From contig NZ_FOQF01000024.1 in NCBI RefSeq assembly GCF_900113655.1, positions 1 to 57,397 on the forward strand: 57,397 nucleotides of DNA, given 5' to 3'. The position numbers and the translations under genes are program-made. Positions within the stretch are counted from its first letter, which is position 1. Each line of letters starts with the position of its first letter. The stretch is from Pseudobutyrivibrio sp. OR37 (lineage in GTDB: Bacteria > Bacillota > Clostridia > Lachnospirales > Lachnospiraceae). The notes below the pieces were generated by a model. The model was given only the letters and a program-made list of their open reading frames with translations, searched no databases and was not told the origin of the DNA. Below, one piece after another: positions 5,000 to 46,971 of this stretch.

Positions 5000-5028
5000 A
5001 CTAATTTATATGGAATAAATACGTGGAT

Positions 5029-7295: not shown

Positions 7296-7301
7296 TATGC
7301 A

Positions 7302-7385: not shown

Positions 7386-7393
7386 TTCCCGTT

Positions 7394-7435: not shown

Positions 7436-7456
7436 TTTAGATTTTGGAGATAATTT

Positions 7457-11301: not shown

Positions 11302-11302
11302 G

Positions 11303-12046: not shown

Positions 12047-12915
12047 TGAGTGATTATATAGTTAGAGGAACAGCAGCAAACGATTCCATTCGCGCATTCG
12101 CCATCACCAGCCATGATATGGTGGAAGAGGCAAGACAGCGCCATAACACATCACCAATAGTAACAGCTGCACTTGGCAGAATGCTTTCAGCAGGCTCTAT
12201 GATGGGCGTTATGCTTAAGGGTGAGGACGATTTAGTAACACTTCAGATTCAGGGAAGTGGCCCACTTAAGGGAATCACAGTTACAGCCAACAGCAAGGGA
12301 GAGGTTAAGGGCTTCCCTAATGTTTCTGTGGTTGATTTACCACCAAAGAATGGCAAGCTTGATGTAGGTGGAGCCATCGACCTTGGTATTATGCGTGTTA
12401 TCAAGGATATGGGCTTGAAGGAGCCATACGTTGGAACAGTAGAGCTTCAGACAGGTGAAATCGCAGAGGATTTAACATATTACTATGCTGTTTCAGAGCA
12501 GATTCCTTCCTCAGTAGGACTTGGAGTTCTTATGAATAAGGACAATACTGTAAATTGCGCAGGCGGTTTCATTATCCAGCTTATGCCATTTACACCAGAG
12601 GATGTAATTGAAAAAATCGAGGAAAATCTTAAGACACTTCCATCAGTTACAGATATGCTTTCAAGCGGTAAGACACCAGAGCAAATGCTTGAAACAGTTC
12701 TTGCAGGACTTGATTTACAGTTTATGGAGACTTATGATACAGCCTTCAAGTGTGATTGCTCAAGAGATAGAGTTATCAAGAGCTTAGCATCTCTTGGTAA
12801 GGAAGACATGGATGAAATCATTGCAGATGGCAAGCCAGTAGAGGTTAAATGTCAGTTCTGTAATGAGGCTTATGAATTTACTATCGACGAACTTAAGAGC
12901 TTTAGGAGGAATTAG
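12046..12915 (+). CDS. hslO: Redox-regulated chaperonin Hsp33
   Basis: Hsp33 is a holdase chaperone switched on by oxidation. The 289-residue protein has the expected N-terminal fold (GTAANDSIRAFA, GSMMGVML, GSGPLKGITV) and the C-terminal zinc switch with CDC and CQFC separated by about 30 residues (FKCDCSRDRV ... VKCQFCNEAY). All four zinc cysteines are present. Its ATG overlaps the stop of the methyltransferase gene. Confidence 0.96.
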   Translation: MSDYIVRGTAANDSIRAFAITSHDMVEEARQRHNTSPIVTAALGRMLSAGSMMGVMLKGEDDLVTLQIQGSGPLKGITVTANSKGEVKGFPNVSVVDLPPKNGKLDVGGAIDLGIMRVIKDMGLKEPYVGTVELQTGEIAEDLTYYYAVSEQIPSSVGLGVLMNKDNTVNCAGGFIIQLMPFTPEDVIEKIEENLKTLPSVTDMLSSGKTPEQMLETVLAGLDLQFMETYDTAFKCDCSRDRVIKSLASLGKEDMDEIIADGKPVEVKCQFCNEAYEFTIDELKSFRRN

Positions 12916-27520: not shown

Positions 27521-27561
27521 AGTCAGTTATTAATCAATTTAATAACTGGCTATTATTTTTA
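27521..27561 (+). terminator. Intrinsic terminator after the NhaC-like gene
   Basis: AGTCAGTTATTAA and TTAATAACTGGCT form a 13-pair stem with one T-G pair, followed by ATTATTTTTA. A close copy of this terminator, with the following promoter, occurs at 56,951-56,993. Confidence 0.85.
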
Positions 27562-27572
27562 CTAATTATTAC

Positions 27573-27606
27573 ACCTATTGACTAGATAGGTAAATAAAGT
27601 TATAGT
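27573..27606 (+). promoter_or_regulatory. Sulfur operator B and promoter of the leader/metK operon
   Basis: ACCTA-TTGACTAGA-TAGGT (27573-27591) overlaps the -35 box TTGACT (27578-27583). A TATAGT -10 box lies 17 bases downstream (27601-27606). The transcript would begin near 27,613 and carry the leader peptide, terminator and tRNA-like element. Repression by an Rrf2-type regulator is inferred. Confidence 0.7.
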
Positions 27607-27637
27607 ATCAACAAGTTAAATGAATCAGAAATTACAT

Positions 27638-27660
27638 CTCAGTAGAAACTGACTGCTGAG
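27638..27660 (+). promoter_or_regulatory. Leader hairpin just before the polycysteine peptide
   Basis: CTCAGTAG (27638-27645) and CTGCTGAG (27653-27660) pair around AAACTGA, one pair being G-T. The hairpin ends directly at the ribosome binding site (GGAAAGGAG) of the leader peptide. It may affect translation of the peptide. Confidence 0.45.
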
Positions 27661-27676
27661 GGAAAGGAGCAAGACT

Positions 27677-27811
27677 ATGAGGGCAAATATGGATAGTAAC
27701 TGTTGTTGTATGTGTATGTGTAAAATGCTATACGCTCAGGCAGAGGATGCTACAGAGTGCATGGCTTCTAGTCTTGCACCTGAATCAGATTACTTCGTAA
27801 ATGCGGATTAA
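27677..27811 (+). CDS. Polycysteine leader peptide, 44 residues (candidate cysteine attenuator)
   Basis: An ATG with a strong AAAGGAG site six bases upstream opens a 44-codon frame starting MRANMDSNCCCMCMCKMLYA and ending YFVNAD. It has six cysteines, five of them in codons 9-15 (Cys-Cys-Cys-Met-Cys-Met-Cys), and six Met in all. Seven bases after the stop codon an intrinsic terminator begins. Polycysteine upstream frames act as cysteine-responsive attenuators in mycobacteria, and the same logic fits here, ahead of a sulfur operon. The alternatives are a metal-binding peptide or a RiPP precursor for the downstream radical SAM proteins. Coding is convincing; the mechanism is inferred. Confidence 0.7.
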   Translation: MRANMDSNCCCMCMCKMLYAQAEDATECMASSLAPESDYFVNAD

Positions 27812-27817
27812 TCGATG

Positions 27818-27850
27818 GCCACTGCTTGGGAAACCAGGTGGTGGCTTTTT
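27818..27850 (+). terminator. Attenuator-type intrinsic terminator after the leader peptide
   Basis: GCCAC-TG-CTTGG, loop GAAA, CCAGG-TG-GTGGC, then TTTTT. It lies between the promoter and all genes of the metK operon, so their expression needs read-through or an antiterminator. I could not find an obvious competing antiterminator stem by eye. Confidence 0.8.
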
Positions 27851-27851
27851 G

Positions 27852-27922
27852 GGTGCTATAGCCGCTGGGAGGGCATAGGCGAGGCATCGCTGAAGTTGTT
27901 GGTTCGAATCCATCTAGCACCA
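27852..27922 (+). ncRNA. tRNA-like element with abnormal anticodon arm
   Basis: The segment folds as most of a cloverleaf. Acceptor GGTGCTA/TAGCACC gives seven perfect pairs with discriminator A. T8 and A9 are present. The D arm is GCC/GGC with a GCTGGGAG loop, and the T arm GTTGG/CCATC holds the canonical TTCGAAT loop with one mismatch. The 23 bases between the D and T arms have the normal length, but the anticodon arm does not pair in register: it gives GGCG/CGCT around a six-base AGGCAT, and position 33 is A, not T. No CCA is encoded. It is therefore either a decayed tRNA or a tRNA mimic; its place just after an attenuator in a sulfur operon favours a regulatory role. Confidence 0.6.
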
Positions 27923-27954
27923 GTTCTATCAAGAAAATGTAAAAGGAGAGAAAA

Positions 27955-28098
27955 ATGGCTGAGGTAAAAGAGGTTACTCAAAAACAACTGGCACAAATTA
28001 AGGATTACATTGAGTCAATAAAATATGGCTCCGTTAACATTGTTATACAAGATGGAAAAATAATCCAAATAGATAAGAGTGAAAAAATAAGATTATAA
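27955..28098 (+). CDS. YezD-family (DUF2292) small protein
   Basis: A 47-residue protein, MAEVKEVTQKQLAQIKDYIE at its start and ending GKIIQIDKSEKIRL, preceded by AAAAGGAG. The pattern (helix, then GSVNIVIQDGKIIQID) matches DUF2292. The Bacillus member yezD lies in the sulfur regulon, which fits this position. Function unknown. It stands between two intrinsic terminators. Confidence 0.75.
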   Translation: MAEVKEVTQKQLAQIKDYIESIKYGSVNIVIQDGKIIQIDKSEKIRL

Positions 28099-28120
28099 AC
28101 AGGTCGAACTGACTAGACAA

Positions 28121-28175
28121 ACTAGAGGTTCAAAATCACGGTCTCATTTGCTGTGGTTTTGAGCCTCTTTATTTT
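28121..28175 (+). terminator. Second intrinsic terminator, between yezD-like gene and metK
   Basis: GAGG-T-TCAAAA-T-CAC pairs with GTG-G-TTTTGA-G-CCTC across a loop containing TCTCATTTG, followed by TTTATTTTAT. I see no convincing promoter between this terminator and metK. The operon may therefore be controlled by read-through at this point too. Confidence 0.75.
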
Positions 28176-28215
28176 ATAAATAACCCCAATAAAAAAAGAA
28201 AAGGAGAACAAAAAT

Positions 28216-29457
28216 ATGGGAAAGTTATTCACATCAGAATCAGTAACAGAAGGACATCCAGACAAAATTGCAGATCAAATTTCTGATGCAATCCTTGATG
28301 AGCTACTTGCTCAGGATCCATATTCGAGAGTTGCTGCTGAAACAACAGTTGCAACAGGACTGGCACTTGTAGTTGGTGAAATTACAACAAAGGCGTATGT
28401 GGACATTGCAAAGATTGCAAAGGAGACAATCCGAGAGATTGGATATGTAAACAATGTAGATGGTTACAACGCAGATTCAATAGCAGTGCTTACATCTATC
28501 GACGAGCAGTCAGCAGATATTGCACTTGGAGTTGATAAGGCGTATGAATCAAAGCAGGAAGGAGAGACAAAGGATTTTGGAACAGGTGCAGGAGACCAGG
28601 GAATCATATTTGGATATGCGACAGATGAAACACCAGAGTATCTTCCACCAGCTATTTCATTTGCTCATCGTCTTACTAGACAACTTACAAAGGTTCGAAA
28701 GGATGGAACACTTCCATACCTTAGACCGGATGGTAAGTCTCAGGTAACGGTTGAGTTTGCAGAAGATGGACAGACTGTAAAGAGAGTACATACCATTGTT
28801 ATTTCAACACAGCATTCTGAGGATGTAACTCTTGAACAGATTCGCAAAGACGTAATTGAATACGTCATAAAGCCGGTAATTCCAGAAGAACTCCTAGACG
28901 AAAACACTATTTATTATGTAAATCCAACTGGAAGATTTGTTATCGGTGGTCCACAGGGTGATGCAGGACTGACAGGACGAAAGATAATCGTGGATACCTA
29001 TGGTGGCACAGGTCGTCACGGCGGCGGTGCTTTCTCTGGAAAGGATCCAACAAAGGTTGATCGTTCTGCAGCCTATGCAGCCAGATGGGTTGCAAAGAAT
29101 CTTGTGGCAGCAGGTGTAGCAAAAAGGCTAGAGGTTGAGCTTGCATATGCAATCGGCGTAGCAAAGCCTGTATCTATAGCTGTTGATTCATTTGGAACGG
29201 GGGTAATTGAGGATGAAAAAATTGTTGAAATCATTGAAAAAGTATTTGACCTTAGACCAGCAGCAATCATTGATGCCCTTGATCTTCGTAGGCCAATCTA
29301 CAAGCAGACTGCTGCTTATGGACATTTCGGCAGGACCGACGTGGACTTACCTTGGGAGCATTTAGATAAGGTGGATGAGATTCGTAAATACGTTAATAAG
29401 GCAGATATAAATTTGTCGGTGGAGTTTGTGGCAGAACAAGAAGTGGTAAGAGTATGA
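28216..29457 (+). CDS. metK: S-adenosylmethionine synthetase
   Basis: The enzyme makes SAM from methionine and ATP. The 413-residue protein has all signatures: [31 protein letters not shown] and [18 protein letters not shown]. It is somewhat longer than the usual 380-400 residues. AAAAGGAG lies before the ATG. It is the first enzyme gene of an operon with two radical SAM proteins, 12 bases before the first of them, so it may be a dedicated SAM supply. Whether the genome has a second metK cannot be seen here. Confidence 0.96.
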
Positions 29458-29469
29458 TAGGAGAAAAAT

Positions 29470-30726
29470 ATGGCAAGAGATAAAGAGTGGCGTAAAAAAG
29501 AACCGAGCCTAAAAGATGTCCAGGCTAAATATTCAGACTTACCAAAATCCTGGATTTTAAAAGCAGACATTCAAAGACGTGGACTGACCTACACTAAAGC
29601 GGCAGTAGATAAAATTGATCCCAATATACATGTGGTAAATAGTGATGCTGGGTCAGGATTTAGAAATAATCTTGATTATGTTCCAGAAGGACTTATCTGG
29701 AAAGACGGTTCGTATCTGGTGGCTAATTTTGATTTTGATGAGAATTCAGCACGCGATCCATATGTAATAGATGTTGTGGATGACAAAATAGTAATAACTG
29801 ATGAAGGTGAAATTTTTGATGAGGTCCTTGGGTATTGGGAAAAACCAGACTTTTATAATAAGCGAGCAAGTAATGGAGAACCATTGAGTAGGTATATAAC
29901 TAGTAGACCTCAGAGATTAGACATTTCTGTAAATAAGTATTGTCATTTTTGGGATAAGCCGGGGGACGGCTGTAAGTATTGTCCTCTGACTCCTACATAT
30001 AAATGTTCTGGGGCAACCGAAGAGCAGTATGAGCATAAATATATCAGAGAAGCCTTTGCAGAAGCATTAAAGCAAAAGGGGAGATTTACGCATGTAATGC
30101 TTACAGGAGGTTCAATACTTTCAGGCAAGGAACTGTTGGATGATGAGCTCGAAAGCTATATAGCAATACTAAAAATATTAGGAGAGTTTTTCACAACTGA
30201 TAGGTTTCCAAGTCAGCTTATTGCAACAGCATTTAACGAGCGACAGTTAGAAAGACTTAAGAATGAGACAAAGCTTATGACCTATACCCCCGACATTGAG
30301 GTATTGAATTCTGAAAAATTTGATTGGATATGTCATGGAAAATCTAGGGAAATAGGATATGAGGAATGGAAAAGACGTATATACAAGGCTGTGGATGTAT
30401 TTGGAAAAGGTAATGTTAGTTCAGGAATGGTTTTGGGTGTAGAGCTTGCTACACCAAATGGATTTACGTCAGAAGATGAAGCTTTTAATGTAATTATTCC
30501 TGAGGCCGAGGAAATAATATCTCATGGAGTTGCATTGGCTGCCAATATCTGGAGGCCAGCACCTAAATCAATTCTTCAAGGACAAAAGTCGGCATCCTTA
30601 GATTACTTTGTAAGAGTATATCGTGAATTTGACCGATTGCAAAGAAAGTATTGTCCAAATCCTTATACAGATGATTTTAGAAGATGTGGAGCTCATATTG
30701 GGCTTGATTTAATGCGAACATATTAA
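29470..30726 (+). CDS. Radical SAM protein with CX9CX2C cluster motif (paralog 1)
   Basis: A 418-residue protein. The first 150 residues are a beta-rich domain (YVPEGLIWKDGSYLVA, RDPYVIDVVDDKIVI). The cluster motif is CHFWDKPGDGCKYC with cysteines 158, 168 and 171, wider than the usual CX3CX2C. It is followed by HVMLTGGSILSG, probably the SAM amino-group site, and a TIM-barrel-like region. The C-terminus YTDDFRRCGAH is shared with paralog 2 at 32,257. The exact reaction is unknown. It is followed after 17 bases by a flavin split-barrel gene; the same pairing recurs downstream, so each radical SAM protein probably works with a flavoprotein. Confidence 0.75.
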   Translation: MARDKEWRKKEPSLKDVQAKYSDLPKSWILKADIQRRGLTYTKAAVDKIDPNIHVVNSDAGSGFRNNLDYVPEGLIWKDGSYLVANFDFDENSARDPYVIDVVDDKIVITDEGEIFDEVLGYWEKPDFYNKRASNGEPLSRYITSRPQRLDISVNKYCHFWDKPGDGCKYCPLTPTYKCSGATEEQYEHKYIREAFAEALKQKGRFTHVMLTGGSILSGKELLDDELESYIAILKILGEFFTTDRFPSQLIATAFNERQLERLKNETKLMTYTPDIEVLNSEKFDWICHGKSREIGYEEWKRRIYKAVDVFGKGNVSSGMVLGVELATPNGFTSEDEAFNVIIPEAEEIISHGVALAANIWRPAPKSILQGQKSASLDYFVRVYREFDRLQRKYCPNPYTDDFRRCGAHIGLDLMRTY

Positions 30727-30743
30727 TTAAACGGAGAAGGATT

Positions 30744-31220
30744 ATGGTAAAGATAAATGATGAATTAAAGCAGATATTAGATGAGCCGGAAACACTAAAA
30801 GTATTAGCAGTTAACAATCGTGAAGGTGTTCCTCATGTTGTATTTAAAGGTACACTTCATGCTGAAGATAATCAATTTGTATTCTATGATTTATTGCAAA
30901 GTTCTGAGATAAACAAAAATTTAGTAAATACAATATGGTTTGAGAAAAAGCTGGCAATCAACATATTGTCAAAGGATCGAAGAAGCTTTCACATAGTGGG
31001 GACACCAGTTAAAAGTGTAACGGCAGGAAAATATTTTGAATCAGTTTATGAAAATATTCAGGAGAGGTTTGGAAGGGATACAGATTTAAATGCAATATGG
31101 TATATAGAGCCTGAACAAATACAAGAGGTTTCTTTTGCATATAGGCAAGCTGAGCAAAGGGAAAAATTTCCAATTTTGGCTCATTTAGATCAAATAACAA
31201 GGAGAGATGATGATGAATAA
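30744..31220 (+). CDS. Pyridoxamine 5'-phosphate oxidase-like flavin split-barrel protein (1)
   Basis: A 158-residue protein of the PNPOx-like fold. VLAVNNREGVPHVVFKGTLH is the typical first beta hairpin pair, and INILSKDRRSFHIVGTPV matches the part that holds FMN in the family. Such small proteins bind FMN, F420 or heme and act as reductases or oxidases. It pairs with the radical SAM gene before it. Its 3' end overlaps the ATG triplet of the binding protein gene, so translation is coupled. The cofactor and reaction are not established. Confidence 0.75.
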   Translation: MVKINDELKQILDEPETLKVLAVNNREGVPHVVFKGTLHAEDNQFVFYDLLQSSEINKNLVNTIWFEKKLAINILSKDRRSFHIVGTPVKSVTAGKYFESVYENIQERFGRDTDLNAIWYIEPEQIQEVSFAYRQAEQREKFPILAHLDQITRRDDDE

Positions 31221-32247
31221 AGTAAAAAAAATAATAGGACTAGGATTAGTTTTATCTTTGACACTAGGACTTTTTGGAGGATGTGGACAGGCGAGTGCAA
31301 AAGCGAGTGAGAATAAAAGTGAAGCTGCCGATGCAAATGAACAAAGAGTTATTCGTTTAGGTAATTTCCCGTTTAGTATATGGAATGCACAAATTATTGT
31401 TGCATACCAAAATGGATATTTCGATGAGGTATTTGAAGGGAAAAACGTTGATATTGAGATTACAGATTTTGCCAATGGCCCAGCTGCTAATGAAGCTTTT
31501 GTCGCTGGTGATTTGGATATTATTAATGGTATTGGTGACCAACCTATCGTAGTCGGTATTGCGAATGGAGTTGATACTAAGATATTGTCTGGTGCTGCTA
31601 AGCAAGGAGAAAATATAGGCGTTATTGCACCTGGGGATAGAGGAATCACTTCTGCAGCAGATCTAAAAGGAAAAAGGGTAGGTGTTTATATTGGCACATA
31701 TGTACATAAATCTATCATTGGTATTCTTAATGATGCAGGTTTGAGCGAAGAAGATGTTGAGCTAGTAAATATTTCGTCTACTTCAGATGCGAGCGCAGCC
31801 TTCGCAAGCGGAGATATTGATGCATATTTATCAATGACTGGTGATTATATTCATGAAAAGGTAGATGGGGAAGGGTATGTTGTTGTTAACGATTGTGCAA
31901 ATCATCCAGCATTTTCTTATATAGTGGCGTCTTCAAAGTTTGTTGATGAGAATCAGGATATTTTAGCGGATTTTTACGATGCATTGAATAAGGCTCAAAA
32001 GTTTATAGACGAAAATACAGATGAAGCATATTCAATAATTGCGGAGTTCTCAGATTATGATGTTGATACTGTCAGATATACTATTGAAAATGCAGATATT
32101 CAATTGGCATGGGATGAAGATTACGAACAGAATTTATTAGAAACATACGACTTTTTATTCAGTCATGAAATGATTACAACTGAGCTGTCAGAAGATGATA
32201 TTTTAGACAAAGTGGATACATCAATTATTGATACATACAGTAAATAG
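31213..32247 (+). CDS. ssuA: Sulfonate/taurine-type ABC transporter binding lipoprotein (1)
   Basis: A 344-residue lipoprotein with lipobox LFGGC after a short hydrophobic signal. The mature part has the SsuA/NrtA-type pattern: QIIVAYQNGYFDEVF, INGIGDQPIVVGIANG and LKGKRVGVYIGTYVHK. Family members bind sulfonates, nitrate, taurine or thiamine precursors. Three consecutive ATGs (31207, 31210, 31213) follow AAGGAG; the third has the best spacing. The permease and ATPase genes come after the second radical SAM/flavin pair, so the transporter is split within one operon. Confidence 0.82.
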   Translation: MNKVKKIIGLGLVLSLTLGLFGGCGQASAKASENKSEAADANEQRVIRLGNFPFSIWNAQIIVAYQNGYFDEVFEGKNVDIEITDFANGPAANEAFVAGDLDIINGIGDQPIVVGIANGVDTKILSGAAKQGENIGVIAPGDRGITSAADLKGKRVGVYIGTYVHKSIIGILNDAGLSEEDVELVNISSTSDASAAFASGDIDAYLSMTGDYIHEKVDGEGYVVVNDCANHPAFSYIVASSKFVDENQDILADFYDALNKAQKFIDENTDEAYSIIAEFSDYDVDTVRYTIENADIQLAWDEDYEQNLLETYDFLFSHEMITTELSEDDILDKVDTSIIDTYSK

Positions 32248-32256
32248 GGTGAGAAA

Positions 32257-33525
32257 ATGAGTATAAACGAAAAAACACACTGGAGAGAAAAAGAGCTATC
32301 TTATGACCAGGTAATTGATAAATATCCTGATATTCCTCCAATATTAGCTCTTAAAATAGATGTTAGCCGGAGGGGAATTGCATACACAGATGCTGCATTT
32401 GCAAAGGTGGATCCTAATAAACATCATGTGGAGCCCTTTAATTATATGATAGGGCACGGTAAGCAAATATCGCCAATAGGATTATTTTTGCGGGATGGTT
32501 CCGTTATTTGCCAAGGCCATCAGGAAGTTTATGATTGGACCTATCGTGATCCATATATATTAGATGTGGTGGATGATAAATTGGTTATTGTGGATAACGA
32601 TAGAATTTTTGAAGAAGCAAAATTTTGGGAGAAACCAGATTTTTACGATAAATATACATCAAATGGAACACCTATGAGAGAAATAGCTTCAGCTAGACCC
32701 CAGAGGCTTACAATAGCTCCAGCCACTAAATGTCATTTCTGGGATGTTCCTAAAGAGGGATGTAAATATTGCGCATTGTTCTCTGCCCATAGATCGGCTG
32801 ATGATGAGGGAGACATCAGAGATGACAAGTGGTTTGATGATGTAACAGAAACAGTTAATGAGGCGTTAAAGCAAAAGGGGCGTTATGCATCATTTCACAT
32901 GACAGCAGGATCTACACTAAGTGGAGAAGAAATCTTCGATGACGAAGTTGATTTGTACATAAAAACATTAAAGGCCGCAGAAAAGGTTATTGATGCTAAA
33001 AAGTTCCCTGTTAAACTAGTTGCCAGTGCGTTTTCTAAAAAGCAGTTACAAAGAATGTATGAAGAGACCGCGATTACTACTTATACTACCGATTTGGAAG
33101 TATTAAATAAAAATCTATTTGGTTGGGTATGCCCTGGTAAGAACCGATTAGTAGGGTACGATGAATGGAAGCATAGATTATATGATGCTGTTGAAATTTT
33201 TGGTAGAGGTAATGTGGATTGTGGAATTGTTGGCGGAGTTGAGACTGCACAACCTAATGGCTTTGAGGATGAGCAAGAGGCTTTGAATAATGTATTAACG
33301 GAAGCAGAGGAAATTGCATCTCATGGTGTAAGTTTTGCAGATTGTGTTTGGAATACTTTGCCTGGTGCAATATTTATGAAACAGAAAACCCCTTCATTAG
33401 AGTATTATGTTCAGCTGGCTTTAGGACTTGCAGAAGTTCGAAGAAAAAATGGATTGTATATTTATACAGATGATTACCGCAGGTGTGGAAATCATCCTAA
33501 TACAGATTTGGCGAGAATAGATTGA
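32257..33525 (+). CDS. Radical SAM protein with CX9CX2C cluster motif (paralog 2)
   Basis: A 422-residue paralog of the protein at 29,470 with the same layout: beta-rich N-domain (RDPYILDVVDDKLVIVD), cluster motif CHFWDVPKEGCKYC (C159, C169, C172), FHMTAGSTLSGEE, then a barrel and the C-terminal YTDDYRRCGNHPNTD. The two share long stretches but differ around the probable active site (MLTGGS against HMTAGS), which points to different substrates or to a heterodimer. It starts nine bases after the binding protein gene. The function is unknown; C-S bond chemistry is inferred only from its sulfur-operon setting. Confidence 0.75.
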   Translation: MSINEKTHWREKELSYDQVIDKYPDIPPILALKIDVSRRGIAYTDAAFAKVDPNKHHVEPFNYMIGHGKQISPIGLFLRDGSVICQGHQEVYDWTYRDPYILDVVDDKLVIVDNDRIFEEAKFWEKPDFYDKYTSNGTPMREIASARPQRLTIAPATKCHFWDVPKEGCKYCALFSAHRSADDEGDIRDDKWFDDVTETVNEALKQKGRYASFHMTAGSTLSGEEIFDDEVDLYIKTLKAAEKVIDAKKFPVKLVASAFSKKQLQRMYEETAITTYTTDLEVLNKNLFGWVCPGKNRLVGYDEWKHRLYDAVEIFGRGNVDCGIVGGVETAQPNGFEDEQEALNNVLTEAEEIASHGVSFADCVWNTLPGAIFMKQKTPSLEYYVQLALGLAEVRRKNGLYIYTDDYRRCGNHPNTDLARID

Positions 33526-33539
33526 GGAGGCTATATTAA

Positions 33540-34010
33540 ATGGCAGTCAAAATAAAAAAGGAAATAGCTGATGCAGTTAATAATCCAGACAATATAAAGG
33601 TATTAGCGTCTATTGATAGACATGGGAATGTCCATGTGGTTGCCAAAGGAAGTATAACAGTTACAGAGGATGGGAGAATTAAATATTGGGAGCTTCTTGA
33701 AAGCTCCCAAACAAATAAAAATGTAACTTATGCACTTTGGTTTAATAAAGAAATTGCTATTAATGTTATAACAACTGATAGGAGGAGCTATCAAATCAAA
33801 GGGATACCTAGAGTGAATTTGAATGCAGGCCATGAATATGAAGAAAACTATATAAAAGCTCAAGAAAAAAACGAAGATAATGACTTGGCTGCGGTTTACT
33901 ATATCGAGCCAACAGAAATCATTGAAGAAACATATTCTAGCAGGCTAGCTGAGGAAACGAAAAAGCATCCTTTGTATATGCATCTTGATAGATTGGCGAA
34001 GAAAGAATAA
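33540..34010 (+). CDS. Pyridoxamine 5'-phosphate oxidase-like flavin split-barrel protein (2)
   Basis: A 156-residue paralog of the protein at 30,744, with VLASIDRHGNVHVVAKGSI, SSQTNKNVTYALWFNKEIAINVITTDRRSYQIKG in the corresponding places and YYIEPTEIIEETY near the end. It follows radical SAM paralog 2 by 14 bases behind GAGGAGG. The repeated radical SAM plus split-barrel order implies that each flavoprotein serves its radical SAM neighbour, perhaps as electron donor or as the enzyme for the next step. Confidence 0.75.
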   Translation: MAVKIKKEIADAVNNPDNIKVLASIDRHGNVHVVAKGSITVTEDGRIKYWELLESSQTNKNVTYALWFNKEIAINVITTDRRSYQIKGIPRVNLNAGHEYEENYIKAQEKNEDNDLAAVYYIEPTEIIEETYSSRLAEETKKHPLYMHLDRLAKKE

Positions 34011-34022
34011 AGAGGTACTTTG

Positions 34023-34793
34023 ATGAATAGAGTAAAAAGTTTTATGTTCAAAGTTATTGCGCCTTTATTACTAATCGTAGTGTGGCAGATATTTGGCACA
34101 TTGGGAGTTTTGAATGAACATATTTTACCACCTCCTACAAAGGTTATTTCAACATTTGTTCAATTATTTAAAAACGGCAAGTTAGTGGATAATCTATTTA
34201 TAAGTTTAATTCGAGTGTTTCGAGGTTTTATATTAGGTGCTCTAGCTGGAGTGGTCATTGGTATATTTATGGGGTTATCGCGACCAATTAACAAGATACT
34301 AAGCTCGCTAGTAAGTATTTTTAGACCAATTCCTATGATTGCTTGGATTCCGTTACTTATTCTTGGCTTAGGAATAGGTGAAGAATCAAAGGTAGCAGTA
34401 ATATTTATAGGAACTTTGTGGCCGGTGCTATTAAATACAATTAGTGGGATTCTCTCAGTTGATACTAAACTTATAGAAGTATCAAGAGTTTTAGAAAAAA
34501 GCAAAATAGAAATGCTTATAAAAGTCATTATGCCATCAGCATGGCCAGCAATTTTTACGGGCTTGCGATTGGGAATTAGTACGGCTTGGACATGCGTGGT
34601 TGCAGCAGAAATGATAGCAGCGTCATCTGGAATAGGCTATATGATTATGTATGCCAGAGAATTGTCACAACCTGATGTAGTACTTGTTGGTGTATTTACT
34701 ATCGGATTTGTTGGTCTATTGATTGATGCAATAATTGGTGCGTTGCAAAAGAAGGCTTTGGGTTGGAGCTATATAAATAAAAATGGAAGGTGA
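34023..34793 (+). CDS. ssuC: Sulfonate/taurine-type ABC transporter permease (1)
   Basis: A 256-residue permease with about six membrane segments, starting MNRVKSFMFKVIAPLL. The EAA-like loop LIEVSRVLEKSKIEMLIKVI and PIPMIAWIPLLILGLGIGEESK are typical of the SsuC/TauC/NrtB group. The ATG at 34023 sits six bases after AGAGGT. Its stop overlaps the start region of the ATPase gene. It completes, with the genes at 31,213 and 34,799, one importer. Confidence 0.87.
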   Translation: MNRVKSFMFKVIAPLLLIVVWQIFGTLGVLNEHILPPPTKVISTFVQLFKNGKLVDNLFISLIRVFRGFILGALAGVVIGIFMGLSRPINKILSSLVSIFRPIPMIAWIPLLILGLGIGEESKVAVIFIGTLWPVLLNTISGILSVDTKLIEVSRVLEKSKIEMLIKVIMPSAWPAIFTGLRLGISTAWTCVVAAEMIAASSGIGYMIMYARELSQPDVVLVGVFTIGFVGLLIDAIIGALQKKALGWSYINKNGR

Positions 34794-34798
34794 TGGGA

Positions 34799-35578
34799 AT
34801 GGCTGAGAGTAATGAGGTGCGTTTTGAAAATGTTGATAAAGTATTCCCATTAGATGGGGATTATTTAGAAGTACTAGATACAATTAATCTTAATATTAAG
34901 TCGGGAGAATTTATTAGTATAGTTGGAAACTCTGGCTGCGGAAAAAGCACGCTGCTAAAAATGCTTGTGGGTTTGGATTCCCCAACTAAAGGAAAAATAA
35001 TTGTCGGTGATAGAGTGGTAAGTGAACCTCGCGCTGATGTTGGAATGGTTTTTCAAGAGGCAAGACTATTCCCTTGGCTAAGTATTGAAAAAAATATTTC
35101 TTTTGGTATTGCAAATAATGTTGCCAAAGAAAATCGTCAAAGGATAGTCAAAGAAGCTATTGAGCTTGTTGGATTACATGGTTTTGAAAAAGCATATCCA
35201 GCACAATTATCAGGGGGGATGCAGCAGCGAGCATCTATTGCTAGAGCATTAGTTGGTGAGCCGGAAGTGCTACTATTGGATGAGCCCTTTGGAGCATTAG
35301 ATGCATTTACAAGAATTACAATGCAAAATGAGGTTTTAAAAATATGGGAAAAAGAGAAGAGAACCATGATTTTAGTAACCCACGATATAGATGAAGCAAT
35401 TTTTTTAAGTGATCGAATAGTAATTCTATCTGAAAGACCTGGAAATATCAAAGAAATAATAAATGTGGATTTGCCTCGACCAAGGGACAGAAGTCGACAG
35501 GAATTTTTGAATATAAGGAAAAAAATCTTAACGAGTTTCATTGGAAATACAGGACTAGATGTAGAGTATTATATTTAA
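34799..35578 (+). CDS. ssuB: Sulfonate/taurine-type ABC transporter ATPase (1)
   Basis: A 259-residue ATPase with Walker A GNSGCGKSTLLKML, Q-loop FQEARLFPWL, signature LSGGMQQRASIARAL, Walker B VLLLDEPFGALDAF and switch VTHDIDEAIFLSDR, the SsuB/TauB subgroup pattern. Starts at 34793 or GTG 34790 are also possible, overlapping ssuC; 34799 has the best distance from AAGGTGATGGG. It is the last gene of the metK operon, which ends 34 bases before a strong terminator. Confidence 0.9.
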   Translation: MAESNEVRFENVDKVFPLDGDYLEVLDTINLNIKSGEFISIVGNSGCGKSTLLKMLVGLDSPTKGKIIVGDRVVSEPRADVGMVFQEARLFPWLSIEKNISFGIANNVAKENRQRIVKEAIELVGLHGFEKAYPAQLSGGMQQRASIARALVGEPEVLLLDEPFGALDAFTRITMQNEVLKIWEKEKRTMILVTHDIDEAIFLSDRIVILSERPGNIKEIINVDLPRPRDRSRQEFLNIRKKILTSFIGNTGLDVEYYI

Positions 35579-35587
35579 TCACTTGCA

Positions 35588-35630
35588 GCTATACTTCTAC
35601 AGAGTTATAATAAAGCTATACTTCTACAGA
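35588..35630 (+). repeat. 16-bp direct repeat around the operon terminator
   Basis: GCTATACTTCTACAGA occurs at 35588-35603 and again at 35615-35630, the second copy being the left arm of the terminator hairpin. The duplication looks like slippage or the scar of an insertion next to the following toxin-like module. Confidence 0.65.
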
Positions 35631-35649
35631 AGTATAGCTTTTATTTTTT
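35612..35649 (+). terminator. Intrinsic terminator of the metK-ssuB operon
   Basis: AAAGCTATACTT and AAGTATAGCTTT form 12 perfect pairs around CTACAG, followed by TATTTTTT. It ends the long sulfur operon just before the DUF3990 gene. Confidence 0.88.
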
Positions 35650-35667: not shown

Positions 35668-36321
35668 TTGAGCAAAATAGTTTTATATCATGGTTCAGAT
35701 AAAATAGTAAGCGCTCCTCAGTATGGGTATGGAAAGCCCTTCAATGATTATGGGCAGGGCTTTTATTGCACTAAGCATATAGACCTGGCCAAGGAATGGG
35801 CAGTAGAAGCTGAGAGAGACGGTTTTGTTAATGTATATGAAATAGATGATAAGGGGCTTAAGATTCTAAATCTTAATGATGAAAAGTATTCAATTTTGCA
35901 TTGGATTACACTGCTGATTGAGCATAGAACCTTTAGTATCAACAGCCCACTGGCAAGGGATGGTATTGGGTTTTTGCAGCGAAACTATCATATAGATATA
36001 GATGAATATGATGCAATAATCGGTTATAGGGCAGATGATTCATATTTTTCATTTGCCAGAGCCTTTTTGGCAAATACTATTAGCATTGAACAGTTGGAAG
36101 AAGCTATGCACCTTGGTGAATTGGGACAACAGTTCTTTATAAAGAGTGAAAAGGCTTTTTCAAAGCTTAAGTTTATAGAGGCAAAACAAGTTGATTGCGC
36201 AGAGTATTATCCTAAGAAGTCTGCTAGGGACAGCAAAGCAAGGGAAAGCTATAGTACTATTGCTGATGCAATGGATAAAAAAGGAACATATCTTATTGAT
36301 CTTGTAAGAAAGGAGCAGTAG
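35668..36321 (+). CDS. DUF3990 family protein, probable ADP-ribosyltransferase-like toxin
   Basis: A 217-residue protein with a TTG start behind AAGGTGG. It opens IVLYHGSDKIVSAPQYGYGKP and GQGFYCTKHIDLAKEWA, the N-terminal pattern of DUF3990, a family related to ADP-ribosyltransferase folds and often placed with small helix-turn-helix or DUF3791 partners as toxin-antitoxin-like pairs. Here the next gene, one base on, encodes an HTH protein. The pair interrupts the run of sulfur operons and has a different theme, suggesting an acquired module. Toxicity is inferred from family context. Confidence 0.72.
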   Translation: MSKIVLYHGSDKIVSAPQYGYGKPFNDYGQGFYCTKHIDLAKEWAVEAERDGFVNVYEIDDKGLKILNLNDEKYSILHWITLLIEHRTFSINSPLARDGIGFLQRNYHIDIDEYDAIIGYRADDSYFSFARAFLANTISIEQLEEAMHLGELGQQFFIKSEKAFSKLKFIEAKQVDCAEYYPKKSARDSKARESYSTIADAMDKKGTYLIDLVRKEQ

Positions 36322-36322
36322 A

Positions 36323-36955
36323 ATGGTTCATCCTTATAAAGAAATATATCTTAGTGATGCTATGGCAAATTTAGCAGAAGCATTTCAGGTGGCAGCTTAC
36401 GATTACAAGTTCAGTCTAGATTTTTTTATGAGCCTGTTCATCGTTTCAGGAATAGCAGCACAGTTTGAAGTGGGAAATCCCAAATACATAGTTGGAAAAT
36501 CCGGGGCGGAGCTTACTCAGGAGATAGTCCTTAGAACAAATGCTACAGAACTAAGGCAGATTGATACATCCTTTAAAGCACCTAAAGAGGATTATTGGAC
36601 AGGTTGGGTGTTAGCATATTATCAGTGGTACTCGGCCAAGAGCTTCAAGGAAATACAAAGCATTATTACTCCAGAGGAATTAATGGAGAAGTACAATCCA
36701 TATCATGAAATGGATGAAATGCAGATAGTAGAATATATTAATTCCAAAGTCGACAAAGCAAGAGCGGTAAGCAGGCTTCAGATGTATCGTAAATACTTTG
36801 AAATGTCACAAAGTGAGCTGGCGAAGGAAGCAGATGTTAATTTGCGTACATTGCAGCAGTATGAAATTGGGGCAAAGGATATAGGTAAAGCCTCGGTGGC
36901 TACACTTGAATCTTTATGTAAGGTTTTGAAATGTGACGTAAAGGATTTATTATAG
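36323..36955 (+). CDS. XRE-type helix-turn-helix protein, probable antitoxin partner
   Basis: A 210-residue protein. The N-terminal 150 residues include a DUF3791-like stretch (AYDYKFSLDFFMSLFIVSGIA) and aromatic segments; the last 60 residues are an XRE helix-turn-helix, LQMYRKYFEMSQSELAKEAD then VNLRTLQQYEIGAKDIGKAS. It begins one base after the DUF3990 gene, giving a tight bicistron. Neutralising the DUF3990 product and autoregulating the pair are the likely roles. Confidence 0.7.
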   Translation: MVHPYKEIYLSDAMANLAEAFQVAAYDYKFSLDFFMSLFIVSGIAAQFEVGNPKYIVGKSGAELTQEIVLRTNATELRQIDTSFKAPKEDYWTGWVLAYYQWYSAKSFKEIQSIITPEELMEKYNPYHEMDEMQIVEYINSKVDKARAVSRLQMYRKYFEMSQSELAKEADVNLRTLQQYEIGAKDIGKASVATLESLCKVLKCDVKDLL

Positions 36956-40957: not shown

Positions 40958-41707
40958 ATGAAAAAAATAGGATATGGAATAGAGTATATTTCGTTAGTTG
41001 TGGTGGTAATTGCTATATGGCAAATCATGAATCTTACTGGAGATTTGAATCCGGTGATTTTGCCGGCACCCCTTAAAGTGTGGCAGACATTTATTTCACT
41101 TCTGACCCAGGGAACGCTTTTAACCAATTTGTTAATAAGTGTTAGCAGGGTATTGAAAGGATATGTGCTTGCAATGCTTTTAGGGTTGATACTTGGTATT
41201 TTCATCGGTTTGTTTGACCACCTGAAGAGAATCACAGATTTACTGATACAAATTATAAAACCAATTCCTCCTATAGCCTGGATTCCACTTGTTATTCTTT
41301 GGTTTGGAATAGGGGAGTCTGGCAAGGTTTTTCTTATTTTTCTGGGTGGATTTTTTACCATGCTGGTAAATGTAGTAGATGGAATTAGACAAGCAGATAA
41401 AAAATTGCTAGAGGTATCTGAAACTGTTGAAACACCATTTATTAAGCATGTGTTTAGAGTAATAATCCCTGGGGCAGCGCCAAATATTTTCACTGGATTT
41501 AGAGTAGGTTTAAGCTCCTGTTGGATGTGTGTGGTGGCCGCCGAATTAGTATCAAGTAACACTGGTTTGGGATTTATGATAATGAATGCAAGACAGTTTG
41601 GGCAGACAGACGTAGTAATCGTAGGAATGCTGATTATTGGATTAATAGGAAAAATCATGGATTCTTTACTAAAACTAATTGAAGGCAGGGTAATTAAATG
41701 GGCGTAA
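40958..41707 (+). CDS. ssuC: Sulfonate/taurine-type ABC transporter permease (2)
   Basis: A 249-residue permease with six predicted segments, IKPIPPIAWIPLVILWFGIGESGKVFLIFLG shared with SsuC-type permeases, and EAA-like loop LLEVSETVETPFIKHVFRVI. AAAGGGG precedes the ATG. It opens the operon whose third gene is the binding protein and whose fourth is the glycyl radical enzyme, so it imports that enzyme's probable substrate. Its stop overlaps the next start by ten bases. Confidence 0.88.
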   Translation: MKKIGYGIEYISLVVVVIAIWQIMNLTGDLNPVILPAPLKVWQTFISLLTQGTLLTNLLISVSRVLKGYVLAMLLGLILGIFIGLFDHLKRITDLLIQIIKPIPPIAWIPLVILWFGIGESGKVFLIFLGGFFTMLVNVVDGIRQADKKLLEVSETVETPFIKHVFRVIIPGAAPNIFTGFRVGLSSCWMCVVAAELVSSNTGLGFMIMNARQFGQTDVVIVGMLIIGLIGKIMDSLLKLIEGRVIKWA

Positions 41708-42477
41708 GTAGTGATTATTTAAAGATAACAGGCTTAAATAAGTATTTTGAAAAGGATGGAGAACGATTTCAAGTTCTTAAAGATATCAACCTTTCTGTGA
41801 GGGAAGGGGAATTTATTTGCATTGTAGGAGCTAGTGGCTGTGGTAAGAGTACACTGCTTAGAGCCATAGCAGGTCTCGATACAGAACATGAGGGGGAGGT
41901 AGTTGTAGATGGAAAAAGAGTTACAAAACCAGAAAAAACTAGAGGAATGGTATTTCAGGAGCATCGCTTATTTCCTTGGCTAAATGTGGAAGACAATATC
42001 AGCTATGTGCTAAATGAGGGATCAAAAGAAGAAAAGAAAAAGAAGGTTGAAAAGCATATAGAGCTTGTTGGCTTGAAAGGTTTTGAAAAGGCTTATCCCA
42101 AGCAGCTGTCGGGAGGGATGGCACAACGAGCAGGAATTGCAAGAGCATTGGTTAATCAGCCGGAAATATTGTTATTGGATGAACCATTTGGTGCTTTAGA
42201 CGCATTTACAAAGATTCAGATGCAGCAGGAGGTTAAGCGAATACATCATACCGAAGGGAAAACGATGATTTTAGTTACCCATGATATTGATGAGGCAGTT
42301 TATCTTGCAGATAGAATTGTAATTATGTCTTCAAGACCTGGAACGATAAAGCGTGTTGTTAATGTGGAGTTGGCTGAGCCAAGAAATAGAAATAATGAAG
42401 AGTTTCTAGCAATTAGAAAACTGATATTTAATGAATTCTTTGCTGAGCAACAAATAGATTTGGACTATGTCATTTAG
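41698..42477 (+). CDS. ssuB: Sulfonate/taurine-type ABC transporter ATPase (2)
   Basis: A 259-residue ATPase with Walker A GASGCGKSTLLRAIAGL, FQEHRLFPWLNV, signature LSGGMAQRAGIARAL, Walker B ILLLDEPFGALDAF and VTHDIDEAVYLADR. The start overlaps the permease gene. It is clearly paralogous to the ATPase at 34,799, so the island holds two complete sulfonate-type importers. Confidence 0.9.
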   Translation: MGVSSDYLKITGLNKYFEKDGERFQVLKDINLSVREGEFICIVGASGCGKSTLLRAIAGLDTEHEGEVVVDGKRVTKPEKTRGMVFQEHRLFPWLNVEDNISYVLNEGSKEEKKKKVEKHIELVGLKGFEKAYPKQLSGGMAQRAGIARALVNQPEILLLDEPFGALDAFTKIQMQQEVKRIHHTEGKTMILVTHDIDEAVYLADRIVIMSSRPGTIKRVVNVELAEPRNRNNEEFLAIRKLIFNEFFAEQQIDLDYVI

Positions 42478-42489
42478 GAGGAGAAAAGG

Positions 42490-43542
42490 ATGAAGAGAAA
42501 ATTATTAAGCTTACTGATTGTAACAGGTTTAGTGGCAGGACTTACTGTGGGATGTGGTTCTGGTGAAGCTGCAGGTACATCAAGTCCATCGGAACAAGCT
42601 TCTGTAGAGGACAATGATGCACAGACAACAGCAGATGGAAGTAAGACAGTCAACATAGCAATACAGCCTTCAGGAGCATTTATCCCACTTATTATTGCAA
42701 GAGAGGAAGGCTGGCTGGAAGAAGAGCTGGCTGAATATGGGGTAGAGGTTGTGTGGAACGATTTTGAGTCAGGTCCACCTATCAATGAATCAATGGCTGC
42801 AGATTTATCTGATATCGGAACATTGGGCGATGTTCCAACAGTTTCTGCTATTGCAGCAGGTCAGGACAATCAAGTGATTCTTATAGCAGCAGAGGGTGAG
42901 AGAGCATATGCGATTTTGACAGCGGCAGACTCTGATATTAAATCAATTTCAGATTTAAAGGGAAAGACAATTGCAACCACTCTTGGTTCGACAGGACATA
43001 ATTTATTTGAGAAGGCTTTATCTTCAGAGGGCCTTAGCTTTGATGATGTAAATCTCATAAACATATCTGCAGGTGATGCAGGCACAGTTTTATCTACAGG
43101 TGAAGCAGATGCTGTAGCGATTTGGGAGCCAAACGTAACAAGACTTGTTGAAAATGGTACAGCAAAGGTTCTTACATACGGTGGTGACGTAGGATTGCTT
43201 GGGGTTAATCCATTAGTAGCTGATCGTAAATATGTAGAGGAAAATCCTGAGGTTATAAAGGTAATTATCCAGCAATATGCAAGAGGCGTAGCAGAAATTG
43301 AAAACATTTCAGATGATACATTAAAGGCAGTTGCAGACTATCTCTCTCTTGACGAGCAGCAGGTTTTAACAGTTGCTTCAAATTGGGATTATACAGTAGA
43401 TATTACTGATGCAGACAAGGCAGGACTTCAGGATACAATCAGCTTCCTTGTTAAAATCGGAACTCTTGGAGAGGAATATTCCATTGAAGATTATATCAAT
43501 ACAGATTTGATTTCTCAGGTGGATTTGAGCCAGTACAAATAA
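42490..43542 (+). CDS. ssuA: Sulfonate/taurine-type ABC transporter binding lipoprotein (2)
   Basis: A 350-residue lipoprotein with lipobox LTVGC and a Ser/Glu/Asp-rich linker. The binding domain shows IIAREEGWLEEELAEYGVEV, DIGTLGDVPTVSAIAAGQ and LKGKTIATTLGSTGHNLFEKAL, as in SsuA-type proteins. It lies 12 bases after its ATPase gene and 19 before the glycyl radical enzyme gene, which links its ligand to that enzyme. An alkanesulfonate such as isethionate or taurine is the likely ligand. Confidence 0.88.
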   Translation: MKRKLLSLLIVTGLVAGLTVGCGSGEAAGTSSPSEQASVEDNDAQTTADGSKTVNIAIQPSGAFIPLIIAREEGWLEEELAEYGVEVVWNDFESGPPINESMAADLSDIGTLGDVPTVSAIAAGQDNQVILIAAEGERAYAILTAADSDIKSISDLKGKTIATTLGSTGHNLFEKALSSEGLSFDDVNLINISAGDAGTVLSTGEADAVAIWEPNVTRLVENGTAKVLTYGGDVGLLGVNPLVADRKYVEENPEVIKVIIQQYARGVAEIENISDDTLKAVADYLSLDEQQVLTVASNWDYTVDITDADKAGLQDTISFLVKIGTLGEEYSIEDYINTDLISQVDLSQYK

Positions 43543-43561
43543 AACTTTAAGGGGTGTATAA

Positions 43562-46033: not shown

Positions 46034-46035
46034 TT

Positions 46036-46971
46036 ATGGATAATACAAAGGGAATAATTTTTAATATTCAAAGGTTTTCAGTTCACGACGGTCCAGGCAT
46101 AAGGACCGTCGTTTTTGAAAAAGGATGTCCTCTAAGATGTAGATGGTGCGCTAATCCGGAATCGCAAATACAGACACCACAGCTTGCATGGACCAAAAAC
46201 AAATGTATAGGCTGCGATAATTGTGTTAATTCTTTGCTGGGGTGCAAACCATATTTTTTGGATGGTGCCTTATATTGGGGAAAATATGATGAGGCTGAAA
46301 GGGAAGCAATAGAAAAAGTGTGCCCCTCCACAGCATTACATATTATTGGATATGAAACTACAGTGAGTCAGGTGATTAAGCAGATTGGTAGGGATGAGAT
46401 TTTTTATGGTGATGAAGAAGGTGGTCTTACTATAAGTGGAGGAGAGCCCTTGATGCAGCCCAAATTTACTTATCATTTGTTAAAGGCGGCTAAAGACATT
46501 GGGATAAATACTGCGATAGAAACAACAGGCTATGGAGAACCATCGGATTTTGTGAAAATTGCAGGGAAGCTGGATTACCTTCTTATGGATATTAAGACAT
46601 TAGATGATTCAGTGCATCAAAAAGTGACTGGCGTTAGTAATGAGCTTATACTTAACAATTTTAATCTGATTAGAAAAATATATCCTAATCTTCCAATTCA
46701 GGTAAGGACTCCTGTGATTCCAGGTGTGAATGATACAGAGGAGGCTATTGGCAGTATAGCTGATTTTATTGGAAAATGCCGAAACGTCAGATATGAATTG
46801 CTTAGATATCACAGGCTCGGTGAAGCTAAATATACATCATTACACAGGACCTACCCAATGGGTGATATTGAACTAGATATAAGCCAATTTGAGAGTCTGA
46901 AAAAGTATGAATTTAATAATATAGGCTCACAGCTTGCAGATGAAGGTTGGCAGAAAGGCTATGGTATATAG
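46036..46971 (+). CDS. Glycyl radical enzyme activase (radical SAM)
   Basis: A 311-residue activating enzyme. HDGPGIRTVVFEKGCPLRCRWCANPES holds the SAM cluster motif CX3CX2C (C31, C35, C38). An inserted ferredoxin-like part, CIGCDNCVNSLLGC and a further Cys near residue 95, is usual for activases of this class but here seems reduced. GGLTISGGEPLMQP binds SAM. It installs the glycyl radical on the enzyme encoded two bases upstream. No strong ribosome binding site is seen, so translation is likely coupled. Confidence 0.92.
   Translation: MDNTKGIIFNIQRFSVHDGPGIRTVVFEKGCPLRCRWCANPESQIQTPQLAWTKNKCIGCDNCVNSLLGCKPYFLDGALYWGKYDEAEREAIEKVCPSTALHIIGYETTVSQVIKQIGRDEIFYGDEEGGLTISGGEPLMQPKFTYHLLKAAKDIGINTAIETTGYGEPSDFVKIAGKLDYLLMDIKTLDDSVHQKVTGVSNELILNNFNLIRKIYPNLPIQVRTPVIPGVNDTEEAIGSIADFIGKCRNVRYELLRYHRLGEAKYTSLHRTYPMGDIELDISQFESLKKYEFNNIGSQLADEGWQKGYGI

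Follow-up and report, generated by a model that had tools for sequence, protein, structure and literature searches.

A variant radical SAM/split-barrel operon in Pseudobutyrivibrio that may serve organosulfur assimilation without a nitrogenase-like protein

Introduction

The alkanesulfonate monooxygenase SsuD/SsuE is an oxygen-dependent flavin system that works beside importers of the Ssu class, and the glycyl-radical sulfite lyases HpsG/HpsH and IslA/IslB cleave the C–S bond of sulfonates by radical chemistry. In Rhodobacter capsulatus, as presented in the accessible part of PMC11423573, anaerobic sulfonate assimilation involves an Ssu-type importer (SsuCAB) together with the isethionate reductase IsrBHDK, whose radical S-adenosylmethionine (SAM) protein is needed for growth; the methylthio-alkane reductase MarBHDK (PMC12552129, in part) cleaves C–S bonds anaerobically for sulfur and has a radical SAM gene as well. 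Models of IsrBHDK have been applied to mouse gut genomes (PMC12330013, in part). Here we analyse an operon of Pseudobutyrivibrio sp. OR37, lying in a 57,397-nucleotide stretch of contig NZ_FOQF01000024.1 (the window, to which all coordinates refer), that joins a SAM synthetase gene (metK) and an Ssu-type importer to two variant radical SAM proteins (rSAM1, rSAM2) and two split-barrel proteins (SB1, SB2). Because the same front end leads into an Isr-type nitrogenase-like HDK set in relatives, and no NifDK homologue is found in the window genome (PF00148, E up to 1e-10), the rSAM+SB combination appears to stand in for the Isr module, without HDK, in assimilating organosulfur compounds (probably sulfonates) anaerobically.

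An earlier note on this DNA knew of no described pathway of exactly this composition. None was found here either: the open-access literature (titles and beginnings of abstracts; subscription papers and preprints lay outside the scope) yielded no description of an rSAM/split-barrel sulfur system. The operon is nevertheless less isolated than the note implied, as IsrBHDK with SsuCAB is a close functional precedent (PMC11423573, in part).

Results

Eight genes lie on the + strand at 28216-35578, in the order metK, rSAM1, SB1, binding lipoprotein, rSAM2, SB2, permease and ATPase, which is the single-strand, single-operon arrangement that the earlier note had read. The spacers are, in order, 12, 17, -14, 9, 14, 9 and -4 bases; the range of 0-17 bases given before is right in its maximum but overlooks two overlaps (-14, -4).

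28216..29457, + strand: metK, the genome's second SAM synthetase (TIGR01034, 580 bits; other copy at G000:C22)
29470..30726, + strand: rSAM1, variant radical SAM protein with CX9CX2C (NF045502, 159.2 bits, cut-off 125; family alignment)
30744..31220, + strand: SB1, remote split-barrel (PNPOx-like) protein (family alignment, PNPOx_N family matches, hhalign, PDB HupZ at E 0.0079)
31207..32247, + strand: SsuA-like substrate-binding lipoprotein (TIGR01728 SsuA_fam, 154.3 bits, cut-off 163.5; PF09084, 73.6 bits)
32257..33525, + strand: rSAM2, variant radical SAM protein with CX9CX2C (NF045502, 184.4 bits; family alignment)
33540..34010, + strand: SB2, remote split-barrel protein (same basis as SB1)
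34020..34793, + strand: ATP-binding cassette (ABC) permease, SaoP/SsuC-like (PF00528, 96 bits; NF040733, 177.5 bits, and SsuC, 167.4 bits, both under cut-offs)
34790..35578, + strand: ABC ATPase, SaoA/TauB/SsuB-like (PF00005, 125.7 bits; NF040729, 254.6 bits, under cut-off)
35612..35641, + strand: terminator-like hairpin 3' of the operon (13 pairs and T tail)

Loci for comparison were chosen by their rSAM, not by its neighbours. Among the 44 sources examined, 20 hold an rSAM above 300 bits with the profile of the SB branch; all matches above 300 bits were included, and some weaker ones (G417, G1126 and second contigs of G590, G736 and G811) were left out. A split-barrel protein accompanies the rSAM in 20 of these 20 loci, encoded by a separate gene in 19 and fused in L076, whose 579-residue product carries the rSAM at 10-406 and a C-terminal SB at 430-578 that matches weakly (20.8 bits) and ends in the HLD motif of the family. 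The pairing that was noticed twice in the window is thus repeated throughout the SB branch. The earlier note also asked whether the neighbours always include an Ssu-type importer; they do so in 17 of the 20 loci, thus not always. Labels for importer, metK and HDK genes come mostly from profiles seeded with these same loci.

Six SB-branch genomes (G713, G607, G1275, G1108, G1064 and G1090) provide a fair test of the pairing, because they were found by their rSAM after the SB alignment had been built. In total there are 27 rSAMs and 26 SBs including the fused one, the third rSAM of L072 having no SB of its own. Some loci are not independent (L001 is 95.7% identical to the window; L004 and L005, with one rSAM/SB pair, belong to one species, Ruminiclostridium cellobioparum) and some genes are interrupted: the rSAM of G713 has two stops, L075 also has a split ATPase, and the binding protein of L053 and the ATPase of L005 are split. 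Searches with the SB alignment covered 26 genomes, which, like those searched for metK and NifDK, were chosen rather than random, and gave 18 matches in 14 of them (E up to 1e-8). Seventeen were known partners, and the remaining one covered 106 positions and lay 2.8 kb further along the G366 locus. No match appeared in the other 12 genomes: 11 are without an SB-branch rSAM, and G607 holds the fused copy. Distances among rSAMs follow those among SBs (Mantel r 0.74, reached in 0 of 5000 permutations, the largest giving 0.42; n = 22), to which common descent contributes; this comparison omits the near copies L001 and L005 as well as L072_9604 (no adjacent SB), and L003_8010 was paired with the non-adjacent SB2. 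Indeed, L003 has retained SB2 though its rSAM2 sits behind the ATPase. Since L053 has only an rSAM1/SB1-type pair, with the importer, a single pair apparently suffices to function, and the two pairs of the window (rSAM1/SB1 and rSAM2/SB2) most likely work in parallel on different substrates. The pair is rare and its occurrence patchy: matches above 260 bits were found in 6 of 200 genomes of the family, and matches above 370 bits in 4 of 392 of the order and 5 of 398 of the phylum, the window genome being counted each time.

Four loci from the genus of the window (L078, L079, L080 and L083) match its DNA at 81-89% as far as 29381-29390, close to where metK ends. The match starts at 27525 in L080, including operator and leader, at 27845 in L079 and L083 (tRNA-like element) and at 27935 in L078 (OscA-like gene). 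Past metK only pieces of the ATPase match, and nitrogenase-like HDK genes with a sister rSAM then follow. In L001 the match with the window begins at 27988, and in L002 it covers the operator region and is taken up again at 27941.

In L057, NifH and NifDK membership was checked against family models (TIGR01287, 375 bits; PF00148); elsewhere the HDK labels were given by profiles. Of the three P-cluster cysteines, only one remains in eight of nine D subunits (L088 has all three), the third position being occupied by Pro/Ser and the first by Asp/Ser, and two further cysteines kept in four control pairs are absent from 9/9; the K subunits keep three cysteines (12, 37 and 100 in L056) in 8/8. Two of the control NifDK pairs lie on the Treponema plasmid pTS2 (NifX-like genes), one on a Chlorohelix plasmid (annotated nifB) and one in G025; two good plasmid relatives of L057 NifDK were used only as controls. 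According to the consulted section of PMC11423573, IsrD has a single cysteine, the two remaining places being taken by Arg and by Pro/Ser, and IsrK has Cys12, 37 and 99. As far as sequence goes, the HDK of the sister module largely carries this published Isr pattern, and the match is close. A single HDK set can be accompanied by several rSAM copies, as many as four in L060 (one truncated at the end of the locus) and three in L057; since these copies share one set and several of them adjoin importer genes, the rSAMs may be the substrate enzymes. Rfam S-boxes precede the nifH-like gene and two rSAM genes of L057 (958-1064, 10328-10438 and 16851-16957) and the nifH-like gene of L059 (11593-11700), which suggests control by SAM, as for methionine genes.

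Two side observations concern these loci. Arylsulfotransferase-like genes occur in the variant-rSAM loci L057, L060, L078 and L082, mostly of the HDK type (PF05935 tested in L060). The plasmid pTS2 of Treponema saccharophilum (L100) encodes two nitrogenase component 1 pairs, NifX-like proteins and an ABC importer near a type I-C CRISPR set.

Both window rSAMs exceed the cut-off of NF045502 ('variant_rSAM'), a domain model without stated function, and the window genome holds no further match to it (E up to 0.001). The Pfam model Radical_SAM (PF04055) scores rSAM1 at 26.3 bits, short of its cut-off of 29.5, finds no match in rSAM2, and is passed by the L076 fusion (32.6). The cluster motif reads CX9CX2C in both window rSAMs and CX8-9CX2C in the family at large, as compared with the canonical CX3CX2C, and its three cysteines are invariant in 25/25 aligned rSAMs. 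A NifB/MarB-type radical SAM protein was considered and rejected, no such matches appearing among the family models, and the glycyl radical enzyme activase (TIGR02494-type) model matched neither rSAM up to E 1. Similarity to TIGR04043 (MSMEG_0568 family) is weak, at 25.4 and 41.8 bits against a cut-off of 303.7.

In a tree of 57 rSAM rows, the SB and HDK branches form separate supported groups. The tree omits matches of <=90 bits, proteins of <=280 or >=520 residues and identical sequences, and the L076 fusion, L067, L069, L070 and cut copies are among the omissions. The HDK-side branch holds 22 rows, 16 with NifDK-like genes in view and six without; L077 (203 bits), which has no SB, is a long-branch outgroup. 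A plasmid search with the variant rSAM of L057 returned 487 records, which among the matches listed (20) were mostly of MSMEG_0568 type, and one with window rSAM2 returned two, both from Streptomyces. Neither of the two plasmid regions examined around rSAM matches names a neighbour resembling SB.

Taken alone, SB1 and SB2 match no family credibly. Six of 16 members of the SB family match PNPOx_N (PF01243; best E 2.3e-6), SB1 and SB2 not among them. The family profile has seven PDB matches up to E 10, the top three being HupZ (E 0.0079-0.013), the fourth pyridoxine phosphate oxidase (0.18), the fifth a beta propeller (0.61) and the sixth and seventh once more oxidases; the structures of HupZ and pyridoxine phosphate oxidase we take to be split barrels. 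Aligned by hhalign with five PNPOx-type proteins from HDK loci, one of which tested positive for PF01243, the SB profile gave E values of 2.6e-6 (global) and 4.9e-5 and 3.3e-4 (local), with probabilities of 77, 68 and 38%, against E 0.06 or worse and less than 1% for 14 control profiles. The split-barrel assignment made previously from the window thus holds fairly well as a remote relationship at the level of the family, but not for SB1 and SB2 by themselves; the proteins probably bear a flavin.

A metK gene is present in 14/20 SB loci and 6/9 HDK loci. Among 25 chosen genomes, all 16 with an intact cluster metK carry two or more, and all eight without a cluster copy (G470, G1090 and six control genomes without the cluster) carry one; G336 (L059), whose cluster metK is broken, has two intact copies elsewhere. 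This extra copy in the cluster suggests bulk use of SAM, and the operon metK may serve such heavy use. L059 shows the metK remnant, with two stops, at G336:C13:79952-80260, and the same locus holds both HDK-type and SB-type modules.

Upstream of the operon genes lie the following elements.

27573..27591, no strand assigned: operator-like palindrome ACCTATTGACTAGATAGGT (four perfect copies in the window against 0.02 expected)
27677..27811, + strand: poly-cysteine leader peptide of 44 codons (from the sequence)
27817..27846, + strand: terminator-like hairpin after the leader, attenuator candidate (13 pairs and T tail)
27852..27922, + strand: tRNA-Cys-like element in the leader (Rfam tRNA, 34.7 bits; ARAGORN none here)
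27955..28098, + strand: DUF2292/OscA-like small protein of 47 residues (PF10055, 67.6 bits, cut-off 22; OscA NF033785, 29 bits, under its cut-off of 85)
28106..28175, + strand: conserved RNA element CUGACUAGA..ACUAGAGGUU with terminator (terminator-like stem 28124-28168, 19 pairs; no Rfam match)

Both the sulfur-type operator and the polycysteine leader described in the earlier note are therefore present. Perfect copies of ACCTAN9TAGGT stand at 24374 (before a NifS-like gene), 27573 (before the operon), 47067 (before a gene resembling an O-acetylhomoserine (OAH) sulfhydrylase; both gene names by reading) and 57005, near the window end, and with two mismatches allowed there are 35 against 21.2 expected, a count that none of 100 shuffles reached. 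The operator overlaps the -35 TTGACT of a promoter-like site at 27578-27606; such sites overall are not above chance (26 against 28.4 expected). By reading, 54465-54866 holds an Rrf2/CymR-like gene.

Cys-rich leaders occur upstream of metK in 4 of 19 regions (window, L079, L080 and L083), and a tRNA-type T-arm in 5 of 19. ARAGORN calls a tRNA-Cys (gca) in L053 and none in the window, L079, L080 or L083; Rfam tRNA scores are 51.6 bits in L053, 34.7 in the window, 35.7 in L079, 37.8 in L080 and 35.7 in L083. The anticodon loop is apparently closed by extra pairs in the window (GCGA/TCGC) and L080 (GTGC/GCAC), while L053 has a normal tRNA-Cys. The available part of a tRNA review (PMC7609411) does not describe a leader element of this kind.

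Before metK, the RNA element at 28106-28175, with the box consensus CUGACYAGAMARCURGAGGU, is a candidate new attenuator or riboswitch. A known riboswitch was looked for with Rfam (27540-28230, E up to 1), which gave only the tRNA and one weak opposite-strand match. The box CTGACYAGAMARCTRGAGGT occurs at seven sites in 4 of 391 genomes of the class, a search pattern that misses the window copy with its one extra base. Two sites in G313 precede an mtnN-like gene; those of G318 precede nifH-like and rSAM genes, 50-odd bases behind an S-box; those of G025 stand before an unknown gene with an ABC set and before a nifH-like gene; and that of G364 lies behind an oscA-like gene. Leader peptide, tRNA-Cys-like element and this un-catalogued RNA together would form a separate regulatory lead.

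Further sulfur genes lie in the window. An HpsG-type (2S)-3-sulfopropanediol glycyl radical enzyme (1412.6 bits, cut-off 1000) and an HpsH-like activase span 43562-46971, and AsrC-like (154 bits, below 324), ThiF (over the TIGR02356 cut-off), TusA and ThiS proteins are also encoded. A second importer (by reading) accompanies the HpsG/HpsH-like set at 40958-46971. Elsewhere, L074 carries a SAF (97 residues) and GD_AH (387 residues) pair at 11105-12581, between rSAM and binding protein, which is SuyAB-like, this layout being presumably that of sulfolactate sulfo-lyase SuyAB; L073 has double-cubane-like reductase genes (4259-7484; 250.5 bits, below 350) inside its metK-rSAM-SB importer operon. 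Directly after the window operon, at 35668-36955, two genes resemble a toxin-antitoxin-type pair (DUF3990-like and helix-turn-helix; names by reading).

Discussion

On balance, we read the operon as an anaerobic organosulfur-scavenging unit, with sulfonate import and radical C–S cleavage as the best account of its parts. At the level of sequence, its composition, the pairing, the control elements and the exchange with the Isr-type module are established. The earlier note had proposed the import of an organosulfur compound and its breakdown by radical chemistry; scavenging gains indirect support from the Isr-type nitrogenase-like module that this front end drives in other members of the genus, whereas radical C–S cleavage is a step that we infer. 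When cysteine is low, a repressor would leave the operator, and the poly-Cys leader and terminator would let transcription pass. The Ssu-type importer would bring in a small organosulfur anion (probably a sulfonate, given the similarity of the binding protein), and the extra MetK would supply SAM in quantity. The variant rSAM, holding a [4Fe-4S] cluster on its CX8-9CX2C motif, would cleave SAM and make a substrate radical that loses its sulfur group, with the SB, probably flavin-bearing, passing one electron to or from the rSAM or the product. Released sulfite could then be reduced and fixed by the AsrC-like, OAH-sulfhydrylase-like and TusA/ThiS/ThiF proteins encoded further on in the window. 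The rSAM+SB pair would occupy the place that Isr-type HDK and a sister rSAM take in relatives of the same genus.

Several observations weigh against this account. The earlier designation as a sulfonate-type importer agrees with the Ssu type of most SB-branch loci, but the binding protein misses the curated SsuA_fam cut-off (154.3 against 163.5 bits); permease and ATPase, nearest to Sao-, Ssu-, taurine- and nitrate-type models, likewise reach no curated cut-off, and L058 has no Ssu-type importer. Nitrogenase-like genes occur somewhere in 9 of 15 SB-type genomes; PF00148 finds none in the window genome, G392, G508, G404, G405 and G607, and two of these six are thiamin-type (G405, G607). Clostridial D subunits have Asp/Ser where IsrD has Arg, the likeness to Isr being judged on HDK. 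A nucleosidase or phosphorylase able to clear 5'-deoxyadenosine is present in 5/9 HDK loci and in 1/20 SB loci. The nearest SB-type relatives, L001 and L002, are without the poly-Cys leader and the tRNA-like element. Lastly, L055 (6224-11616) and the fused L076 (8575-14256) lie in thiamin pyrophosphate (TPP)-riboswitch operons (72.5 and 65.2 bits) with YkoF (PF07615) and an energy-coupling factor-type permease (PF09819), which we take to be of YkoE type. The Sao selenoprotein system was considered as well and rejected: SaoP and SaoA are the best permease and ATPase models, under cut-off, and the portion of PMC13188914 at hand names no such rSAM.

Because L055 and L076 stand behind TPP riboswitches with YkoF, the family has a thiamin-linked branch, and these divergent members apparently serve thiamin or its hydroxymethylpyrimidine (HMP) moiety; the excerpt of PMC5037267 places ykoEDC under a THI box and describes YkoF as thiamine-binding. 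The earlier note had named a family function unrelated to sulfur as evidence that would count against it, and the two operons touch this point in part. It is conceivable, though unlikely, that the window pair too salvages a thiamin-related or other heterocycle, the lipoprotein binding a pyrimidine-type ligand that rSAM and SB open or trim, and the match of that lipoprotein to NMT1/THI5-like PF09084 would fit. However, it is nearer SsuA, Rfam places no TPP riboswitch in any of the other 18 sources of SB type, the window included, and L055 is a long branch in the rSAM tree. Moreover, metK, operators and sulfur genes surround the pair, with S-boxes near L058, L059 and L072.

The organosulfur reading could be carried further, tentatively and with more doubt than conviction. 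The rSAM+SB pair might be a new two-component class of radical C–S lyase using MetK-supplied SAM as a bulk co-substrate. In Isr-type modules as well, the rSAM would be the substrate enzyme, and its electron partners would be interchangeable: HDK, the split barrel or the double-cubane reductase of L073. Sulfite splits thiamin, leaving pyrimidine sulfonate, and the TPP branch might apply the same chemistry to a thiamin-derived compound of this kind.

Quite unlikely, in our judgement, is a role of the rSAM as maturase or activase, like NifB or a glycyl-radical activase, with the SB as target or scaffold and the C–S cleaving enzyme elsewhere. MarB is regarded as a NifB-like maturase in the part of PMC12552129 consulted, and that of PMC11423573 leaves open whether IsrB activates IsrHDK. 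Yet the window genome has no NifDK homologue, the several rSAM copies per HDK set, some beside importers, fit substrate enzymes better, and the extra metK speaks for bulk SAM use. A role in making or modifying a sulfur-containing cofactor or metabolite from an imported precursor, rather than in breaking down an organosulfur nutrient, is improbable. Biotin synthase, a sulfur-inserting enzyme, is what the rSAM profile matches best in the PDB, but that match is weak and generic (E 0.0085); the control elements fit sulfur scarcity, and the patchy occurrence and the cassette exchange with Isr-type HDK also tell against such a role. Anaerobic haem or porphyrin salvage by a HutW/HutZ-like pair is very improbable, since, for all that rSAM and split-barrel proteins pair in haem utilisation and HupZ tops the PDB matches of the SB profile, the HutW-type model, presumably present in the library searched, matches no rSAM up to E 1, the importer is nearer the Ssu type and the control is of sulfur type.

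If the organosulfur reading is correct, rumen-type Lachnospiraceae would have an oxygen-free and nitrogenase-free route of sulfur assimilation, and a function could be given to an rSAM family that is uncharacterised and unusual in its cluster motif, with SAM as bulk reagent. No operon gene matched SsuD/SsuE; unlike the HpsG and IslA type, the operon has no glycyl radical enzyme, and its rSAMs match no activase model. The rSAMs pass NF045502 and resemble TIGR04043 weakly, far under the cut-off of the latter. MarB has NifB motifs and MarD has cofactor ligands, according to the available part of PMC12552129, and the window has neither. IsrBHDK with SsuCAB remains the nearest parallel, from which the window differs in having a split-barrel protein instead of a NifDK-like one and a metK of its own; combining a sister rSAM with the shared front end and importer class in a genome without a NifDK homologue, it would make the question of what IsrB does directly testable.

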